Source: a virus
Length of the DNA stretch: 64,000 bases
IMG/VR virus record: IMGVR_UViG_3300032053_000032
Coordinates: 1-64,000 of that record
Direction: 5' to 3' (one strand)
Below are positions 1 to 49,513 of this stretch, in pieces. The first letter of the stretch is position 1. Each line of letters starts with the position of its first letter. The notes beneath the pieces are model-generated. The model made no database searches. It saw nothing but the letters and a program-made list of their open reading frames with translations, and was not told where the DNA came from. The position numbers and the translations under genes are program-made.

Positions 1-1
1 A

Positions 2-172
2 GACGAGCACGGACTCGTCGAGTTCATGGACGGCACGGTCACCGACTACCTCTGGCGCCGTAGCGCGGGGATGTCGGCGTGTCTGGAGTGCTCAACGAAG
101 GACCTGCCGTCTGCGGTAGGAATCGCGCGTGAGTGGATCCTCGGCCTCATCGAGGCCGCCGCAGGTTTCTAG
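2..172 (+). CDS. C-terminal end of an unknown protein (start outside window)
   Basis: The frame is open from the first bases to a TAG, giving the last 56 residues of a protein whose start lies outside the window. It contains a C-x2-C pair (CLEC) and ends in a predicted amphipathic helix. The family is not recognised. It reads in the same direction as the head genes that follow, so it probably belongs to the end of the packaging or portal module. Confidence 0.6.
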   Translation, partial: DEHGLVEFMDGTVTDYLWRRSAGMSACLECSTKDLPSAVGIAREWILGLIEAAAGF

Positions 173-1895: not shown

Positions 1896-3980
1896 ATGGT
1901 CGACTTCACTACCTTCGCGCCAGGTGCCCGTATCATGCTCGTGCTGCCCTCCGGTCCAGCTCTAGCCGAGGCGCTACGTGCTTGCTGGGCAAACGGCCTG
2001 GTCGCGATCCCACGCGATCCCAAGAGCAAGCAGAACGTCCAGGTCGCGGAGCACGCGCAGGTCCACGCGCGCGTAGATGTTGACGGAGTTCATCCGAATC
2101 ACGTAGTTCATCCACTCTCGCCGCTCCACGACCGCCTCATCCTTTACACGTCCGGCTCTACAGGAGATCCGAAGGGCGTCGTGCTTACCGAGGCCGCGCT
2201 GAAGTCGAACGCGGTCCAGGTCGCGAACCGTCACGACTTCGCCTCGGGCGCGCACGCTACCTGCTTGTCACTGCATCACTGCAACGCGATCTGCGGGTCG
2301 CTCTACGGAACGATGCTCACGGACTCGCGCCTGATCATCTCGGGCAGCAGCGACATGACCGCGTACTTCTCGGCCATCGAGACGCACCGTGTATGCACCG
2401 CTACCATCGTGCCCGCTCTCCTTGAGAAGCTCCTCGCCTCGCCTCCGCGCTGGCCTTCCCGCCTCAAGTACCTGATCACGGCTGCGGCCCCGCTCACCCG
2501 CGACCTCGCGCGCCGCTTCCGTGATGTCTACGGTGAAGAGCGTCTCGTGCAGGGGTACGGGATGACCGAGGCGGTCAACTTCTCGACCACTATGCCGAAC
2601 CTCGCCGGGAAAGCTTGGTCAGCTGCCTACGTGAACCAGCACCCACCGGTCGGCGCCCCGCTGCCTGGAACCGAGCTGCGCGTGGAAGATGGCGAGGTTC
2701 AGGTGCGCGGCTTGAACTTGATGCGGGAATACTGGCGGAACCCGGAAGCTACAGCGGAAAAGTACACCTCGGACGGATGGTTCAAGACCGGAGACGTCGG
2801 GTTCGTAGGGGATGACGGACTTCTCCGCTTGAGCGGGCGCATCTCGGAGGGGATCAACTGGCGTGGCGCGATGACCTACCCGACAGACTTCGAGGAGTCC
2901 TGGGCGCTCAATTCACCCGGCTGCGCGATATCAGAGCGTGGTGTCTGTGTTCCTGTTGTTGACCCGGACGGACGCGAGCACCCCGCGGTAGTCGGCTGCT
3001 TGACAGCCGTCGCGCTCGGCTTGAACGACCCACCACCGATGGCGATGGACTCCGGTCCCGTGCAGGGGACGTTGACGTTCAAACCTCGCCGCCGCTCGAT
3101 GTCCACGGCCCTTACCTGTCGCTTCGATGATGACGTGCGCTACGAAGCGTTGCGCATTACTGCGTTCGAGGTGTACTCCATGATGGACTACCAGAGCCTA
3201 GACGCTCTCCAGATTTCGTCAGTGCAGGAACGCTGGATCGTAGATCGGGCTCTCGAATTTCGCCAGAAAATGACCGGCGCGCGGCTCGGTGACAAGCGGC
3301 TTGCCAGAATCGGCGGCGCCTGGAACGACGTCTGGAGCGAGGCCCTTCAAGCTCTCGGCACGCAGTGGGGTGCGCACGATGCGGAGCACCCTAAGCGGAT
3401 CATCACCGAGATCCCCAGCCTATGGCGCCGCCTCATGCACGAGTGGCCGATGGGCGTCTACGGTGACCTCGTGGCGGACATCATCGCTCGTCGAGGTCTA
3501 CTTCATGGCCGCGCGCTGGAGTTCGGGACTGGGGTAGGGAACACGTCCGGTCTTCTCAACCGCGCTAAGTTTGACGAGCTGTTCCTCACGGATTTGCAGC
3601 AGAGCACGAAGCGTGGTGTGCGGGCGTGGAACTTCGACTGCGGGGAACCTTATACCGTGGGGCTAGACCTCATATTCGGGACGAACGCCTTGCACTGTTC
3701 CAAGAGCCCCACGAAGGCCCTGCACACCATGTTCACGATGCTCAAGCCAGGAGGGCACCTTGTAATTGGGGAAGGTGAAGCTCACCCGTATCGTGACGAG
3801 CCCTGGGCACTGCACGCGTTCTTCGGCCTCTTCGACGGCTGGTGGGACGTCGGCGGGTTCCTAACGCGCCGCGGATGGGTCGAGCTGCTTGAGCGCACCG
3901 GCTTCGTCGATGTAGGATGGAGCGTGTTCCGTGCCGGCAGGTTTGATCTCGGAGGTGCTCTATGGGCGCGCAGGCCCTAG
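1896..3980 (+). CDS. Adenylate-forming (ANL) enzyme fused to a PKS-type methyltransferase
   Basis: This 694-residue protein has two catalytic parts. Residues ~80-370 form an ANL adenylation domain: P-loop YTSGSTGDPKG (84-94), GYGMTE (220-225), KTGDVG (297-302) and hinge-like SGRISEGINWRG (313-324). The part before the P-loop is short, and no PTGK catalytic lysine motif follows, so the C-terminal lid is missing or strongly diverged. Residues ~535-690 form a SAM methyltransferase: ALEFGTGVGN (540-549), TNALH (596-600), LKPGGHLVI (616-624) and GLFDGWW (644-650), as in polyketide-synthase C-methyltransferases. No carrier-protein DSL motif is convincing. The arrangement recalls NRPS adenylation domains interrupted after motif A8. 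The next gene, a MaoC-like hydratase, overlaps it by 19 bp. The substrate is unknown. The ATG has only a weak GCGGA upstream. Confidence 0.85.
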   Translation: MVDFTTFAPGARIMLVLPSGPALAEALRACWANGLVAIPRDPKSKQNVQVAEHAQVHARVDVDGVHPNHVVHPLSPLHDRLILYTSGSTGDPKGVVLTEAALKSNAVQVANRHDFASGAHATCLSLHHCNAICGSLYGTMLTDSRLIISGSSDMTAYFSAIETHRVCTATIVPALLEKLLASPPRWPSRLKYLITAAAPLTRDLARRFRDVYGEERLVQGYGMTEAVNFSTTMPNLAGKAWSAAYVNQHPPVGAPLPGTELRVEDGEVQVRGLNLMREYWRNPEATAEKYTSDGWFKTGDVGFVGDDGLLRLSGRISEGINWRGAMTYPTDFEESWALNSPGCAISERGVCVPVVDPDGREHPAVVGCLTAVALGLNDPPPMAMDSGPVQGTLTFKPRRRSMSTALTCRFDDDVRYEALRITAFEVYSMMDYQSLDALQISSVQERWIVDRALEFRQKMTGARLGDKRLARIGGAWNDVWSEALQALGTQWGAHDAEHPKRIITEIPSLWRRLMHEWPMGVYGDLVADIIARRGLLHGRALEFGTGVGNTSGLLNRAKFDELFLTDLQQSTKRGVRAWNFDCGEPYTVGLDLIFGTNALHCSKSPTKALHTMFTMLKPGGHLVIGEGEAHPYRDEPWALHAFFGLFDGWWDVGGFLTRRGWVELLERTGFVDVGWSVFRAGRFDLGGALWARRP

Positions 3981-35685: not shown

Positions 35686-36084
35686 GTGCAGGTTCTGCAT
35701 CTTACCGGGATAGTTGAAGACGGGTCGAGGAGGTCTTCGACTATCCCAGCAGACATGCGCAAAGTTGTACATGCAACGCGCGGCGCGAGCTTGTCCATCT
35801 TTGTGCAGGTACTCCTGCCATCTGGCGCCGCACCTGATCAGGCTGGCGCAACGCTTGTCCTCTCCGTGCAGCGCGTACCTTGGCCGAATGCCCCAGCTAT
35901 TCAGGTTGCCGGAGTACTACAGCCGGACGGTACTTACCTCTGCGCGATCACGCCTGCCATGACGCGCGATCTGGCGGTAGGGCGCTACCTCTACGATGTC
36001 TGGTACCTTCAGGGAGCGGACCGCAACCAGGTCGTTCCCGTCAGCGCGTTCTTTATCGCCCCGACCGTCACCCCCGTACCCTGA
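35686..36084 (+). CDS. Small beta-rich structural protein
   Basis: This 132-residue protein has a GTG start directly after the upstream gene. Strands and a final RYLYDVWYLQGADRNQVVPVSAFFI resemble baseplate upper-protein-like folds (BppU-type) that carry receptor-binding proteins. This similarity is by pattern only. Confidence 0.45.
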   Translation: MQVLHLTGIVEDGSRRSSTIPADMRKVVHATRGASLSIFVQVLLPSGAAPDQAGATLVLSVQRVPWPNAPAIQVAGVLQPDGTYLCAITPAMTRDLAVGRYLYDVWYLQGADRNQVVPVSAFFIAPTVTPVP

Positions 36085-36094
36085 AGGAGCCGGC

Positions 36095-36478
36095 ATGTCG
36101 ATCACCGCAGGCGAGATGGCCGAGCTGTTCGTGGCTGGCGCCGCCGCCGCGGCGGCCTTTATCGGGATCGGGAAGATGATCTTTGGTGGTGAGAGCACCG
36201 CGAAAGCTCTTGCCGAACTGAAAACGGAGCGCACCGTCAAGGACGAGATCGCCAAGAAGGAGGTGCACGACACCATGGCAACTCACGAAAAGTCGGACGA
36301 AAAGTTCCACGCCGAGATCAACAAGAAGCTCGACGTCGTGATGGAGAAGCTCGACATCCTCCTCAACAAGCAGCACGAGGGTGATGTTCGGCTTGCTCGT
36401 GTCGAGACGGAGCTGGACATCAGGCGTCCGACGCCGATCGAGGGCGTTCCGGCTATCCGTGACGGCGGGAAAGGTTAG
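36095..36478 (+). CDS. Membrane-anchored coiled-coil protein (possible i-spanin)
   Basis: This 127-residue protein has an AAGGAG ribosome-binding site. One N-terminal membrane helix (LFVAGAAAAAAFIGIGKMI) is followed by a highly charged coiled coil of ~70 residues. That topology matches inner-membrane spanin subunits, and it lies near the endolysin. An outer partner (lipoprotein) was not found next to it. Confidence 0.5.
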   Translation: MSITAGEMAELFVAGAAAAAAFIGIGKMIFGGESTAKALAELKTERTVKDEIAKKEVHDTMATHEKSDEKFHAEINKKLDVVMEKLDILLNKQHEGDVRLARVETELDIRRPTPIEGVPAIRDGGKG

Positions 36479-38191: not shown

Positions 38192-38662
38192 ATGGGTATC
38201 CTCACCGTGAGCACCGTCTGTGGCACCATCCTGGTCATTCTCGGCCTCATCTACAAGTTCCTCGCCCCGCTCGTCAAGAGCCCGGTCATCGCCGGGATCC
38301 TGTCACGCGCGAAGGATGAGGTTTTCGCCGCTGTTCACGAGGTGGATGCTGGGTACGTTGACGCGATCAAGCTCGCTTCCGCCGACGGCACCCTGACTGC
38401 GGCCGAGAAGGCTGTTGCAAAGGACAAGGCCATCGCCATCGCCAAGAGCAACATCGGCATGAAGGGCCTCGCGACGCTGAGCAGGATCGCCGGGATCGAG
38501 TCGGTTGAGAAGTGGATCGCCTCGTGGATCGAGCGCGGCGTGAGCACAAAGCGCCTCACCGAGCAGCACGCGGACGCAGCAACGCTGGCTGCTTCTGCTG
38601 TCGCCGGGGGTGACGCGACCGTCCCTTTCGTCAAGCCCGCGCCGAACAACTCGCCGCGGTAG
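38192..38662 (+). CDS. Holin-like membrane protein, short form
   Basis: This 156-residue protein has one N-terminal membrane helix (GTILVILGLIYKFLAPLV) and a long amphipathic, Ala/Lys-rich domain resembling LLH-type phage holins. It lies just before the endolysin. It carries the slippery heptamer CCCTTTC near its end (38623-38629), which would redirect translation to a longer product. Confidence 0.6.
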   Translation: MGILTVSTVCGTILVILGLIYKFLAPLVKSPVIAGILSRAKDEVFAAVHEVDAGYVDAIKLASADGTLTAAEKAVAKDKAIAIAKSNIGMKGLATLSRIAGIESVEKWIASWIERGVSTKRLTEQHADAATLAASAVAGGDATVPFVKPAPNNSPR

Positions 38663-38919
38663 TTGCGGCGCAGTCGGTTGTCGCGGGGCAGCGGCTCGAC
38701 CACGTCGACTCGCTTCGGGTAGGGGAAGGCCATCTCGACCTGAGCGCCTTCGCTCACGGGGACGGGATCGGTGGCACCTCGGGCGTCTCGCTCGACTATG
38801 AGCACCGCGCGACGGCTGGGCTGTCCATGTTCGGCACCGGGTGGGCCGGTGCAAGCTACGGTGCGGGCGGGTTTGCCCCGGCGTACGGCGCGCAGGTCGG
38901 TCTTCGTCTCAAATTCTAG
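38192..38919 (+). CDS. Holin-like protein, long form by -1 frameshift (candidate)
   Basis: A perfect X-XXY-YYZ heptamer, C-CCT-TTC (38623-38629), lies in the zero frame at residues 145-146. After a -1 slip the frame is open for 96 more codons to a TAG at 38917. The extension has no ATG, GTG or TTG start before its Met in LSMFGTGWAG, so it cannot readily be a separate gene. It has good codon structure and ends in strand-like GAQVGLRLKF with a C-terminal Phe, as in outer-membrane beta-strands. The fused product would be ~242 residues and could link inner and outer envelope layers in lysis. Confidence 0.5.
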
Positions 38920-38928
38920 GAGGACGTC

Positions 38929-39807
38929 ATGGGCTTGATGATCGGCGGGCACGAAGAGGAGATCCAGGGCGTCGTCATCAACTCGTGGATCAAGCACCCG
39001 GAGCTTCGCCTGGACGGCGGGGACCGACGCCCGCGCGACCCAGCGCGAGCCCACGCCTGGCCCGTCCGCAGCATCGTCATCCACACCGTTTACGGCGACG
39101 AGCCGATCGTGCTCCTCAAGGGCAAGGGACCAGACGGTGGCGAGCCCGCCGCGTGGATCAAAGACCAGCGCGGCGACAAGACCCACGCTGGCGAGCACAT
39201 GCTAGTCGGGTTTGACGGCGCGGTCGCCTGCACCTGTGACCTCCTAGGCGAGGCGAGCTACCACGCGGAGAGCATCAACGAGCTGTCGATCGGCATCGAG
39301 ATCTGCACCCAGCGCGCACGGGACGTGACAACCGGCCAACCAGTCTTCTACATGTGGCAGGCTTCGCTCGACGCCACCCTGGCAATCTGCGACTACCTGA
39401 CCGCGCTCCCGCGGGCATCCGCCGGGCACGGGCTGATCTCCGTCGCGCGCCAATACCACTCCCCGTTCCGTAACGGGTCACCCGTGCCGAGGTTCGCAGC
39501 GGGCGGATCCGACTGGACGGGCATCCTCGGACACCGCGACCAGACCTCCAAGAGAGGAGCTGGTGACCCCGGCCACCACGTCTTCGACGTGCTAGCTGCG
39601 CGCGGCTACGAGGCGTTCGACGTCATGGATGATGCTGACAAGACGGTGTGGAAGGTCCGCCAGGCGTACCTGAACGGGAAGTACGGCTCCCACCTCACCG
39701 TCGACGGCGTGCCGGGACCTGGGACGCGGGCGGTGCTGGAGCAGGCGGGGTACCGCGGGGGGCTGTGGCAGTTCCCTCCCAGCGCGACCCCGCTCCCAAC
39801 GGCATGA
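38929..39807 (+). CDS. N-acetylmuramoyl-L-alanine amidase endolysin
   Basis: This 292-residue protein has GGAGG upstream. An Amidase_2 core spans residues ~15-215: IVIHTVYGD (first zinc His), YHAESINELSIGIEI, and GHRDQTSKRGAGDPG near the third ligand region. The C-terminal ~60 residues (WKVRQAYLNGKYGSHL, VDGVPGPGTRAVLEQAG) resemble a peptidoglycan-binding repeat. It cleaves the amide between MurNAc and L-Ala. No signal peptide, so release depends on a holin. The last 113 bp overlap a convergent gene. Confidence 0.88.
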   Translation: MGLMIGGHEEEIQGVVINSWIKHPELRLDGGDRRPRDPARAHAWPVRSIVIHTVYGDEPIVLLKGKGPDGGEPAAWIKDQRGDKTHAGEHMLVGFDGAVACTCDLLGEASYHAESINELSIGIEICTQRARDVTTGQPVFYMWQASLDATLAICDYLTALPRASAGHGLISVARQYHSPFRNGSPVPRFAAGGSDWTGILGHRDQTSKRGAGDPGHHVFDVLAARGYEAFDVMDDADKTVWKVRQAYLNGKYGSHLTVDGVPGPGTRAVLEQAGYRGGLWQFPPSATPLPTA

Positions 39808-41915: not shown

Positions 41916-42071
41916 CTACGTGTCGTTGGGCAACTCAAGTGCGTGAGCAAGTTTGTGCAGAGCGTGGAGCGCGCGCTCCACGAAGGATGCGTTCCTTCGC
42001 TTTTCATGCGCCTTTTGCCAGTCCGAGGTACGCTTCTTGCGCGCTTTGGCGCGCTTCGACCACTTGCTCAT
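41916..42071 (-). CDS. Small basic protein
   Basis: This 51-residue protein starts at the ATG overlapping the VWA-gene stop (ATGA). The N-terminal half is extremely basic (SKWSKRAKARKKRTSDW), the rest is an amphipathic helix. It probably binds nucleic acid. No family recognised. Confidence 0.6.
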   Translation of the reverse strand: MSKWSKRAKARKKRTSDWQKAHEKRRNASFVERALHALHKLAHALELPNDT

Positions 42072-43444
42072 CCGTCGTTCGTCTCGTCGATGGAGATAAA
42101 CTTTCCCCACTCGCACGGGTGCTGCTGATACGGGCCGACCAAGAGCCAGATGACGGAGGCCCACGGCGGTGGCTCGGCGGGTGCTGGACCCTGCCCATCG
42201 GTCACGATGATGATCACGTCTGGCCGCGGATTCTCGGTATCATCGGGCGGCAACCCAGCCAGGTACTCGAAGACGGGGCAGAAGTCCGTCCCGCCACCAC
42301 CCTTGAGCTGCGCGGCAGCTTCCTGCCAGGAAGCCGCGCGTACCGCGGTGTGAACCGTGGCGTCGCAGGTCAGGAATGCCACGGACGCGTTCAGCACGGC
42401 GAGCACCCCCGACGCTTCCGCCATCGCGCGGTTCAGCTCGGCAACGCCCATCGACCCAGACGTGTCGACCACGAACGCAACGTTCGGCACGAACTCGTAG
42501 AAGCCGGCGAGGCGAGGCTTCCCTGGTCCGAAACCGAGCCCTGCCTGGCGCACCGACGTGCGCCGGTAGGTGTAGTCCACCACCCCTGCACGCTGCACGA
42601 GCCCGCGGATCGAGTGAGCCAGCTCCTGCTCCCAGGAGATCTTGGGTGGCTTCAACTCAGCGTCCGCCCACCGCTGAAGTCCTGCCGGAACGTCTCCGCG
42701 ACCCTTGCTGGCTTCCTCGCGGATCGCTTCGGCTGTCTCGCGGCGGATCCGGCGGATCTCGGGTTCTGACTTCCCTACCTGACGGCCAGTCGAGTCCTTG
42801 GCGTCCTCATCCGGCTCGCCAGGCACCGCCTGCCCACCGCCGGACCCGCACCACCCGGTTCCCGCGCCGGGCTTGGCGCCCATCTCAGCGGCCTTCTCAC
42901 CAGCCTTCTGAGCTTCCCCCTTTTCCCGCCCAGAGCCATTCCCAGACTGGTCTGGAGTTGACCCCCTGCCGAGCGCGGCCAGGCGGTTGTAGTAGTCCTC
43001 CGCGATGGATCCGGGCTTGAAGCCGAGCGTCTGAGGGAGCACCGGCGGGCTGGCCTTGGGCGCGCGGAACTCGCGGTCCTTGGCGTCTGGACCGTAATCG
43101 CCGGGCTGCTCGGGCTTGATGAGCACCAGGTCGTCGTTGATCTCCATGTCGTGCGCGATGTTCCAGAGGCGGTGTTCCCCGGCGTGCTTCTCGCAGCGGG
43201 TGAACGACTCGCGGAGCGGATGCATGACCTCGTGGCAGAGAACCCAGGCGATCTCGCCCACGGTCCACCTCTCGATGGCCACCGGATCGTAGAGCGCGAC
43301 CATTCGCGGCGTGATCCCGATGGTGCCCAGTTCCGGCTGCTCCCGGAACACCATCGAGTTGAGCGCGCGCCGGAAGTAGGGCAGCTTCTGCTTGGCGATG
43401 TGCCGGCCGGCCATCAGCTTCGCACGCGGGGTGAGGGTGGGCAT
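42068..43444 (-). CDS. Metallopeptidase-like and VWA-domain protein (MoxR partner)
   Basis: This 458-residue protein has AAGGAG in the end of the upstream gene. Residues ~1-130 form a zincin-like domain with HEVMH (71-75) and NIAHDMEIND nearby; ~150-250 is a charged linker; ~315-455 is a von Willebrand A domain with the MIDAS start VDTSGSMG. This is the DUF2201 architecture. The MoxR ATPase is two genes upstream, and MoxR/VWA pairs act as chaperones that insert or remodel cofactors or complexes. The phage target is unknown. Confidence 0.8.
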   Translation of the reverse strand: MPTLTPRAKLMAGRHIAKQKLPYFRRALNSMVFREQPELGTIGITPRMVALYDPVAIERWTVGEIAWVLCHEVMHPLRESFTRCEKHAGEHRLWNIAHDMEINDDLVLIKPEQPGDYGPDAKDREFRAPKASPPVLPQTLGFKPGSIAEDYYNRLAALGRGSTPDQSGNGSGREKGEAQKAGEKAAEMGAKPGAGTGWCGSGGGQAVPGEPDEDAKDSTGRQVGKSEPEIRRIRRETAEAIREEASKGRGDVPAGLQRWADAELKPPKISWEQELAHSIRGLVQRAGVVDYTYRRTSVRQAGLGFGPGKPRLAGFYEFVPNVAFVVDTSGSMGVAELNRAMAEASGVLAVLNASVAFLTCDATVHTAVRAASWQEAAAQLKGGGGTDFCPVFEYLAGLPPDDTENPRPDVIIIVTDGQGPAPAEPPPWASVIWLLVGPYQQHPCEWGKFISIDETNDG

Positions 43445-43448
43445 CGGG

Positions 43449-43595
43449 CTACTCCTTGCCGTACACGACGGCGGCCTTGAATGCGTAGAAGAACTCGGTA
43501 TCGGTCCCTTCGGTCACCTCGGCGCGTACCTGCTCGATGGTGAAACCGTAGGCGAGAAGGTTAGCGATCCGGCGGATGGTCGAGTTCGTTTCCAT
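43449..43595 (-). CDS. Small leaderless-transcript protein (METNS start, copy 1)
   Basis: This 48-residue protein starts METNS, identical at DNA level over its promoter and first codons to the gene at 50773. The body is helical (VEQ-type acidic) and unrelated to that gene. The ATG is 7 nt after a -10 box with no ribosome-binding site. Its own stop region provides AAGGAG for the VWA gene, so the two are coupled. Confidence 0.65.
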   Translation of the reverse strand: METNSTIRRIANLLAYGFTIEQVRAEVTEGTDTEFFYAFKAAVVYGKE

Positions 43596-43602
43596 GAGAA
43601 GC

Positions 43603-43631
43603 AGTATGCTCGCTTTCCGCGTTGTATGCAA
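43603..43631 (-). promoter_or_regulatory. Early promoter, GAAAGCG family
   Basis: On the minus strand: TTGCAT (43631-43626), 17-nt spacer ending GCGGAAAGCGAG, CATACT (43608-43603), then 7 nt to ATG. A second GCGGAAAGCG arm lies inverted at 43642-43651, so the -35 box is enclosed by an inverted repeat that could bind a regulator. GCAAAATAGTT lies just upstream as a possible UP-element. Confidence 0.75.
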
Positions 43632-43655
43632 CAACTATTTTGCGGAAAGCGACGA

Positions 43656-44876
43656 TTAGCGACGTGACCGAGGCTGGAGGCCGGTCGCCTTGACGAACGG
43701 CTGCATCTTGGCGAGCACCGGCCGGGCTTCCGGGATTTGCGACAGCTCGCTATCGATGAGCGTTCCCATCGGGCGGATGCAGAGGTCAGCCATCTCGCCG
43801 ACCACCTCCCCGAGGATGCCCCAGAGGACCGTCGCGCGCGCCTTCCGCTTGTCGAGCTTCCGGTCTTCGAGGATGGTGGCGCACGCGTTGAGCGTGACCT
43901 CGGTGCGGTCGATGCGGTCCGGGTCGTGCGACCACTTCGTCACGCGGTCCATGACGTCGAGCGGGTTCGGCAGGTCGACCTTTTCGCGGTACTCGAACAG
44001 CTCCGAAGCTGCGCCGGCCCCCACAAACGACGCAACGAACTCCTCCGCATCGCCGACTTCGAGCCCGTTCACCTCACCGGAGGACAGCGCGCGGGCTGCA
44101 TTCTCCCAGGAGCGCGGAGAGCACCACGCGCGGCCGGCCTTCCCGTCTCCGAGCTTGGGCACCTTCAGGAGCGCGTCGGGCACGGCCTTGATGTAGCCGG
44201 CGACCACCGCGCGCGCCTTCGCCCACGGGCTGCCCCAGTTCTCCATCACCCGAGCTTCTTCAGAAGCTGCCGATCCAAGCACGACTTCGGTGTGACGGTC
44301 GGCACCGGACCCGAGGAGCCAGGACGTCCACTCGCCGACGTCCGGCCGGTTGTCCTGAAGCCAGGGCAGGTGCCCCATGCGGTTCGCGACCGGGGCAGGC
44401 AGCTCGCTTCCACCCGCGGACAGCTCCGGCGGGTTGGCTGCTCCGAAGATGCGGACGCGCCGCCCGAGGAAGTGCGCGCCGATCCGCTTCTCGTGGATGA
44501 GCCCCATCAGCGCGGGACGAAGCGCAGCGGGCGCCGTGTTCGTCTCGTCCACGAAGACGATGCCCACCGGAACTCCCTGGGCATCAAGCAGGTTGTCGGT
44601 CCACTCCGGGGGTGGGTAGGTGAGGATCATGCGGTCCACGATCTTGCCGTCCGGGTACTTGAACGGGCGGATCTCGGGCACCGGCGTCACGCCGAATGCG
44701 CCCTCCTGGCGCTCACCTGGCGACAGCACCTCGACGTACAGCCCAGTCTCCCGGCCGAGCTGGAGGATCGCTTCGGTCTTCCCGACACCGGGAACGTCCC
44801 AGAGCAGCATGGGAAGGCCCCAGCCGCGGCTGGTGGGCGTGAAGAGTGCGGCGCGGAGAATATCGAGGCGGCTCAT
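43656..44876 (-). CDS. MoxR-type AAA+ ATPase
   Basis: The start at 44876 was chosen for CAGGAG upstream; in-frame codons beyond it read through a structured non-coding stretch. This 406-residue protein has Walker A DVPGVGKT (27-34), Walker B IVFVDE (106-111), and FGAANPP (sensor 1). MoxR ATPases work with VWA proteins as chaperones or metal-insertion machines; the partner is at 42068-43444. Late in the sequence is a helical lid. Confidence 0.85.
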   Translation of the reverse strand: MSRLDILRAALFTPTSRGWGLPMLLWDVPGVGKTEAILQLGRETGLYVEVLSPGERQEGAFGVTPVPEIRPFKYPDGKIVDRMILTYPPPEWTDNLLDAQGVPVGIVFVDETNTAPAALRPALMGLIHEKRIGAHFLGRRVRIFGAANPPELSAGGSELPAPVANRMGHLPWLQDNRPDVGEWTSWLLGSGADRHTEVVLGSAASEEARVMENWGSPWAKARAVVAGYIKAVPDALLKVPKLGDGKAGRAWCSPRSWENAARALSSGEVNGLEVGDAEEFVASFVGAGAASELFEYREKVDLPNPLDVMDRVTKWSHDPDRIDRTEVTLNACATILEDRKLDKRKARATVLWGILGEVVGEMADLCIRPMGTLIDSELSQIPEARPVLAKMQPFVKATGLQPRSRR

Positions 44877-44914
44877 GTAATTGGCTCCTGGTAGAGGTCT
44901 TGGGCAAAGCGTCC

Positions 44915-45028
44915 CGCTCGTGCCCGGCGCAACGTGGTCCTGGTGTTCTGGAAGGCTTTTGTATCGCCTTGCCGAACCTGGGCCTCCGTTACGGGCCGAG
45001 GTGGGAGCCGTTGCGCCGGGCACGAGCG
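44915..45028 (-). ncRNA. Possible structured RNA closed by a perfect 20-bp inverted repeat
   Basis: 44915-44934 and 45009-45028 are exact reverse complements (20 bp), with 74 nt between. The interior holds AAGGC/GCCTT and CCTC/GAGG hairpins. It lies between a zinc protein and the MoxR gene on the minus strand, where it might be a processed RNA, an attenuator-like leader or a recombination site. It has no T-run. The strand is assigned by the flanking genes. Confidence 0.5.
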
Positions 45029-45048
45029 AGGCGTTCCGCGCCAGTCTG

Positions 45049-45243
45049 TTACTCCTCGTCGATGCAGGCGAGGCAGGTCGCTCGGTGAGCGCGGACGGTG
45101 TCCGCGACGCACGCGGGGCACATCGGCGCTTCGCACCGGGGGCAGTACATGCCGCCGGAGTCATCTCCGCAGCCCGTGCAGATCTCCGGGTTGGTGTTTT
45201 CGTCAGTGCGGTCGTACTCCATCGCGTTCGTCTGATTGCTCAT
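45049..45243 (-). CDS. Small zinc-binding protein (leaderless transcript)
   Basis: This 64-residue protein has CTGC, CPRC, CPAC and CLAC pairs spaced as a B-box or RING-like double zinc site. The ATG is 7 nt after a -10 box. It probably mediates protein or nucleic-acid contacts. It is acidic at the N-terminus. Confidence 0.7.
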   Translation of the reverse strand: MSNQTNAMEYDRTDENTNPEICTGCGDDSGGMYCPRCEAPMCPACVADTVRAHRATCLACIDEE

Positions 45244-48544: not shown

Positions 48545-49513
48545 TTAGCTGTTGTCGTCCGACGAGGCGGCCGCGATGACCGCTGCGGTGGCAAGCTGGA
48601 AGGACACGGAACCGCTGGAGGCCGCAGTGGCGACGGGCGCCGCGGTAAAGGCCGCCATCAGGTGGGTGCGCACGGTGCTGAACTCCTCACCCTTGCTGAA
48701 GCCGAGCTTGCTGACCAGGTACGTCATGCCCGCGCGGTCCGCCGTGATGGGCGTCGAGAGGGGGATGGAGGTCTTCCAGGTCTTGCAGCGAGCGACCATC
48801 GCGAGGCAGAGCTGGATGTACGCCTTGACTTTGCCAGCGTGAAGGGTCGAGTTGAAGAGGCGGAACTCCACGGTGCCCTTGGTCCAGACCGCGTGAAGGT
48901 TCAGGGCCTGGTAGCGGCTGCCATCGTAGTGCGTGGGGTAGTTCTCGACACGGCCGTACCAGGCGCGTGAGAGGCCGCGCGAATCCTTGGCGATGGTAGC
49001 GCGCTCCGAAGCAGGAGCGCGGCGCAGACGCTCGCAGAGGGTCTTGCCAAGCTTCTTGCAGTACTGTTCGCGACGGGGAAGGACCGCGAGCGACGTGAAG
49101 AGCAGATCCTGGTAGTAGTGCATGAGCGACGCGAGGTTGATGGTGTTCTGCGCCGTGAGCGACTCGGCGCCGACATGGACGTGGATGCCACACGACTCGT
49201 CAACCTGCGCGCCGCAAGCGCGAACGGCGCGAACAACCGCCTGAACCGTGTCGAGGTCGCTGTACACGAGGATGGGCGAGACGACTTCCGCGCCACCGTT
49301 ACAGGGAAGCGACCCGTCGCGCATCGACTTCCAGACGCGCCCGTCGGTGGCAGTAACGATCCAGGTATCGTAGCTATCGTGCGTGTGGGTGACGACGCCA
49401 CCGACGACCGACTGAACGGCCTCTGCAACAACCTGGCGGCTCTTGCCGAACGTTTCGACTTCGAGGCCAAAGCGGAAAGACTTCATCGACTCGGTCTGGT
49501 TCGCGGTGGTCAT
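48545..49513 (-). CDS. Amidoligase-family COOH-NH2 ligase
   Basis: This 322-residue protein has the Amidoligase_2 motifs: GLEVETFG (16-23), SCGIHVHVG (107-115), LNLHAVW (204-210), TKGTVEFRLF (211-220), and a helical C-terminus. The fold is that of the glutamine-synthetase-like ligases, which use ATP to join a carboxylate to an amine. The ATG follows TATAGT by 7 nt without a ribosome-binding site. It starts the accessory operon containing the GGCT genes. Confidence 0.9.
   Translation of the reverse strand: MTTANQTESMKSFRFGLEVETFGKSRQVVAEAVQSVVGGVVTHTHDSYDTWIVTATDGRVWKSMRDGSLPCNGGAEVVSPILVYSDLDTVQAVVRAVRACGAQVDESCGIHVHVGAESLTAQNTINLASLMHYYQDLLFTSLAVLPRREQYCKKLGKTLCERLRRAPASERATIAKDSRGLSRAWYGRVENYPTHYDGSRYQALNLHAVWTKGTVEFRLFNSTLHAGKVKAYIQLCLAMVARCKTWKTSIPLSTPITADRAGMTYLVSKLGFSKGEEFSTVRTHLMAAFTAAPVATAASSGSVSFQLATAAVIAAASSDDNS

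Follow-up and report, generated by a model that had tools for sequence, protein, structure and literature searches.

In tailed phages, programmed frameshifting has been described chiefly for the tail assembly chaperones, among which lambda G/GT slips by -1 towards the end of its ORF, ahead of the tape measure gene, to make a minority product with a C-terminal extension, while the dnaX-type signal of bacteria combines an SD sequence, the slippery heptamer A_AAA_AAG and a stem-loop (PMC3711429, PMC5009743, PMC3556154). Among lysis proteins, the two-component Rz/Rz1 spanins, overlapped or embedded, consist of a small inner-membrane-type protein encoded next to the endolysin and a separate lipoprotein in a second frame, and the unimolecular spanin gp11 of T1 is proposed to join both membranes with one protein. 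The locus described here, in an uncultured virus, has traits of each of these systems: a dnaX-like -1 frameshift rather probably yields products of 156 and 242 aa from one gene beside an endolysin.

The virus record comprises 85,027 bp with a GC content of 63%, and the window, the whole stretch of DNA that was analysed, covers its bases 1-64000. The two ends of the record (window 1-127 and record 84901-85027) are identical over 127 bp, a direct terminal repeat that suggests a complete genome, either circular or with terminal redundancy, and the record is therefore probably complete; alternatively, the repeat is a k-mer overlap made by the assembler. The phage genes in the record include those for a terminase, a portal, a DnaB-like helicase and a recombinase. 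Five relatives of the terminase were found in bacterial genome bins, including Gammaproteobacteria, 'proteobacterium', 'delta proteobacterium' and Planctomycetota; wherever a group was named it is a diderm one, and these few relatives on binned contigs thus hint at a diderm host. Several other genes of the record deserve mention in their own right. A 694-aa ORF (1896-3980, plus strand) fuses an AMP-binding enzyme domain (E 8e-42) to a methyltransferase-like domain, which is unusual in a phage; an Amidoligase-family gene (PHROG 2443, E 2e-65) lies at 48545-49513 on the minus strand; and at 42068-45164, also on the minus strand, an HNH endonuclease-type gene adjoins an ATPase-type phage gene, the homologues of both lying near each other in the related genome G017 (L076). 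A homologue of phosphoadenosine phosphosulfate reductase (E 5e-76; L002:7565-8761, minus strand) is close to a DNA methyltransferase gene and SbcC/SbcD-like genes.

The elements of the candidate frameshift gene are collected in Table 1. The amidase ORF begins right after the last stop codon of the gene, as the sequence-only reading had it, and its SD AGGAGG (38918-38923) overlaps that TAG. Its product matches Pfam Amidase_2 with E 1.5e-5, slightly below the gathering score, and a PHROG of endolysins with E 1.7e-7, and its C-terminal stretch resembles, by eye, a peptidoglycan-binding domain. Just one relative of the endolysin was found, in LR745208.1 (36%; the same virus as L087), where the upstream position is taken by an 812-aa ORF, with no counterpart of the frameshift gene.

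Table 1. Features of the candidate frameshift gene and its surroundings, in window positions
Feature	Position	Strand	Remarks
Neighbouring ORF	35996..36478	+	one hydrophobic segment and a charged helical part
0-frame ORF, 156 aa, short product	38192..38662	+	ATG 38192; stop TAG 38660-38662
Hydrophobic segment GILTVSTVCGTILVILGLI	38195..38251	+	residues 2-20; mean Kyte-Doolittle 2.33
SD-like GGGGGUGA, candidate upstream stimulator	38606..38613	+	duplex with anti-SD
TGA in -1 frame	38611..38613	+	5' limit for any shift
Slippery heptamer C_CCT_TTC	38623..38629	+	
-1 frame extension, 96 codons and TAG	38629..38919	+	TAG at 38917-38919
RNA stem-loop, 52 nt, -28.6 kcal/mol	38636..38687	+	begins 6 nt 3' of the heptamer
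QVGLRLKF, C-terminal end	38893..38916	+	fits beta-signal Po-x-G-x-x-Hy-x-aromatic
Amidase endolysin, next ORF after -1 frame	38929..39807	+	Amidase_2 domain

A CCCTTTC heptamer in the right phase for -1 slippage had been claimed, and the reading frame of 38192-38662 bears this out: the 0-frame reads ...GTC CCT TTC... across it, so that the phase is X_XXY_YYZ. Heptamers of this form are scarce in the surveyed coding genes of the window, occurring in frame at 12 of 9708 codons (0.12%), a rate from which the chance of meeting at least one within the 15-codon interval where the shift must fall is 1.8%. When all 64 X_XXY_YYZ heptamers were assayed in E. coli, C_CCU_UUC was among those with high-level frameshifting (PMC4066793; Sharma et al. 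2014). Transcriptional slippage at the G5 run was also considered and rejected, as the -1 frame there hits the TGA at once.

Between this TGA and the TAG the -1 frame is indeed open for 96 further codons (38629-38916), which together with residues 1-146 of the 0-frame make up the 242-aa product. The frame contains no usual start, again in agreement with the earlier claim: ATG, GTG and TTG are absent over 71 codons until ATG 38827, which as a start would leave just 30 codons, and no near-cognate start comes before CTG 38740. The coding character ascribed to it is likewise substantiated. Scored with a codon model built on 21 genes of the same virus, the segment 38665-38916 reaches +0.34 bits per codon, more than any of 366 stop-free same-strand off-frame controls and within the range of genes, about 25% of the same-length segments from the main genes of the virus scoring lower; the 0-frame ORF scores 0.58-0.61 bits per codon. 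One class of antisense controls reaches the score of this segment in 0.7% of cases. An antisense gene over 38665-38916 was rejected, its best reading being 26 bits worse than the sense -1 frame. In a survey of the window together with L002, which covers some 84 of the record's 85 kb, the segment is the sole one among 105 coding segments to have no nearby start; none of the 105 was a headless frame of the tail-chaperone type. A scan for headless frames with a self-trained model missed the segment (27.2), which was masked by its antisense shadow (31.7), and the headless claim thus rests on the survey of the 105. From codon score, controls and survey it follows firmly that the -1 frame is coding and has no start.

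Stimulators of -1 frameshifting are an SD-like motif 6-17 nt upstream, a range reported as proven to stimulate (PMC4066793), or a structure 5-9 nt downstream, and this site has both, at 13 and 6 nt respectively. The upstream distance runs from the SD-like sequence (GGGGG at 38606-38610) to the second base of the heptamer. Its duplex with the anti-SD (-9.9 kcal/mol) ranks within the top 1% among positions inside genes and equals those of real ribosome-binding sites of the same virus. The heptamer at 38623 is the only one, out of 11 found in frame in the genes scanned, to have an SD-like motif at this spacing; 17% of all codon positions have one. On the downstream side, the 0-frame stop TAG falls in or at the apical loop of the stem-loop. 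The exact 52 nt fold with a z-score of -2.9, and 60-nt windows here fold more stably than all but 0.3-0.8% of those inside genes; equal stability is reached by 4-7% of the shuffles that preserve codons, a longer stretch of 91 nt has a z-score of only -1.2, and further strong RNA structures are present elsewhere in the gene. The stem-loop therefore gives moderate support for a frameshift, base composition explaining part of its stability. Both features were sought after the site had been seen, so their probabilities are not simply to be multiplied.

The earlier suggestion of a dual-product lysis gene was thereby strengthened in its frameshifting half, to which the SD-like sequence, the stem-loop and the efficiency of C_CCU_UUC have been added. 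In the mechanism we propose, most ribosomes would read 38192-38662 and produce the 156-aa single-span membrane protein, while a minority would pause at C_CCU_UUC, where pairing of the SD-like sequence with 16S rRNA and the downstream stem-loop may assist a slip. With a slip of one base back, Pro-tRNA would move from CCU to CCC and Phe-tRNA from UUC to UUU, both cognate re-pairings, and the slipped ribosomes would read on to 38916 to complete a protein of 242 aa whose tail is rich in beta-strands. What the sequence establishes is the elements themselves and the coding state of both frames; that ribosomes slip here, and how often, is inferred.

The holin half of the suggestion fared worse. The 0-frame ORF encodes an N-terminal hydrophobic segment, likely a single membrane span, followed by an Ala-rich region that is probably helical. 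A membrane span close to an endolysin is what is expected of a holin and is found here, yet it is not specific to holins; the ORF has no family match in Pfam, PHROGs or NCBIfam, and nothing beyond a lone hydrophobic segment near lysis genes speaks for the label 'holin-like'. An i-spanin or an accessory protein could equally have one such segment and lie next to an endolysin, and the label is better lowered to 'small lysis-region membrane protein'. The ORF at 35996-36478 is a rival candidate for a holin or accessory lysis protein.

The long form consists of the hydrophobic segment at residues 2-20, an Ala-rich stretch of about 155 residues and strand-like sequence ending in QVGLRLKF. This end had been likened to outer-membrane strands, and it passes a beta-signal test that just 2 of 2719 ORFs (at least 100 aa, from this virus and its relatives) pass. 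The beta-signal Po-x-G-x-x-Hy-x-Hy is the recognition mark of outer-membrane proteins. A regular-expression scan found no lipobox in the frameshift ORF or on the likely genes of the record, and without a lipoprotein signal on these genes a normal o-spanin or u-spanin is not seen; an Rz1-type overlapping lipoprotein was rejected, the second frame having neither start nor lipobox. The long form could be anchored in the inner membrane with its beta-signal tail docked at the outer membrane, and by arithmetic the stretch of about 155 residues would measure about 230 angstroms if all helical, presumably enough to span the periplasm. The charges at the hydrophobic segment (none before it, K/K/R/K after it) favour, as far as sequence can tell, an N-out/C-in orientation that would leave the tail in the cytoplasm, and for this reason it is doubtful that the long form acts in a spanin-like manner, bridging the membranes for a phage in which no lipoprotein spanin could be detected. 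The fuller proposal, a spanin encoded by one gene through programmed -1 frameshifting, in which the short form stays in the inner membrane and the minority form with its BAM-type beta-signal tail replaces the lipoprotein spanin, is distinctly unlikely. The same charge distribution speaks for another role, in which the shift is real and the tail, lying in the cytoplasm (N-out, C-in), tunes holin or antiholin timing instead of reaching the outer membrane. Lambda S105/S107 shows in principle how two products of one lysis gene can set the timing, whereas a C-terminal beta-signal as rare as this one has no obvious use in the cytoplasm; we rate this alternative, which concerns function and not the frameshift, as possible though rather unlikely.

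As for the frameshift itself, its chief competitor is a single continuous gene broken by a single-base indel at 38614-38662, either a population mutation or an assembly error, with a coincidental heptamer. That the headless segment is unique in the record survey would suit such an accident, and so would the best switch point in codon usage, which lies at 38651 and is about 11 bits better than a switch at the heptamer. A recent indel would leave the switch to mark the break, but a gene with genuine frameshifting would pull it to the same place, most ribosomes still reading its final ten 0-frame codons. The sequence comes from a single metagenome-derived record, and no relative was found that shows the site maintained: the -1 frame half has no homologue in viral contigs, phages, PDB, plasmids or 29 related virus records, nor the 0-frame half in viral contigs, phages, PDB, genome contigs or the same 29 records, and a recent indel or assembly error consequently keeps some of its probability. 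An exact search with the heptamer in its context returned one contig, an unrelated one. Among the relatives found via the terminase, the nearest one whose structural genes follow the same order is the collinear G001 (84.7 kb); its lysis region carries different genes from those of this virus; lysis and fibre genes thus seem to be exchanged between these viruses. The region in G001 (L046 285-5505, minus strand) holds an amidase-like ORF, small membrane ORFs and several tail-spike-like ORFs. Against an indel, the lack of a second headless segment among the 105 indicates that the assembly is otherwise clean, and 38614-38662 has no homopolymer longer than 3 bases, which makes typical assembly indels, and transcriptional slippage too, less likely. 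Both the heptamer and the SD-like motif would, moreover, have to be there by coincidence. On balance we regard a broken gene as unlikely, and programmed frameshifting as the better reading.

It is quite improbable that the locus holds two separate genes, with the tail protein made from a non-standard start, for which CTG 38740 after GGGGAAGG is the best candidate (59 codons). An SD-like duplex of -7.4 kcal/mol precedes this CTG, and in 38629-38742 the antisense reading is 7 bits better than the sense -1 frame, an indistinguishable score that makes coding upstream of the CTG less certain. Over the same interval, the sense -1 frame leads the other sense frames by at least 19 bits, and none of 2156 off-frame controls from the same strand scores as high as 38665-38742; in addition, a 59-aa beta-strand protein would lack a signal sequence, and the first 42 codons offer no other near-cognate start. 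It is scarcely credible that the -1 frame does not code and merely happens to be open, for although 19% of base shuffles of 38665-38916 stay open, none of 5000 reaches its coding score, its codon-position GC resembles that of genes and its stop abuts the endolysin SD.

If programmed frameshifting does operate here, the ratio of two lysis products would be fixed from a single gene. Building the lysis machine from a short and a long form of the same membrane protein would be unusual, and it might let the phage disrupt the outer membrane with protein alone, dispensing with a lipoprotein. Headless ORFs beside endolysins would then deserve the attention of annotators. A programmed frameshift in a lysis gene of a tailed phage did not turn up in searches of an open-access library, a weak indication that the arrangement is new.

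With the bacterial dnaX-type signal, the locus shares the order and spacing range of SD, heptamer and stem-loop; it differs in its heptamer, C_CCU_UUC in place of A_AAA_AAG, in that the shift gives the longer product, and in being known from its sequence elements alone. Like lambda G/GT it would make a C-terminally extended minority product by slipping -1 shortly before a phage ORF ends, but the gene lies beside an endolysin in the lysis region instead of ahead of a tape measure gene, and there is no sequence match. As in Rz/Rz1, a small inner-membrane-type protein sits by the endolysin and a second frame lies at its end; here, however, the second frame has no start or lipobox and would be fused to the first, not expressed as a separate lipoprotein. 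None of the spanin types in PMC6139136 has this order of parts. A likeness exists to gp11 of T1, also one protein proposed to join both membranes and having a beta-rich part, in which an N-terminal lipoprotein signal is combined with a C-terminal TMD, whereas the present protein reverses that order, with an N-terminal hydrophobic segment and a C-terminal beta-signal.
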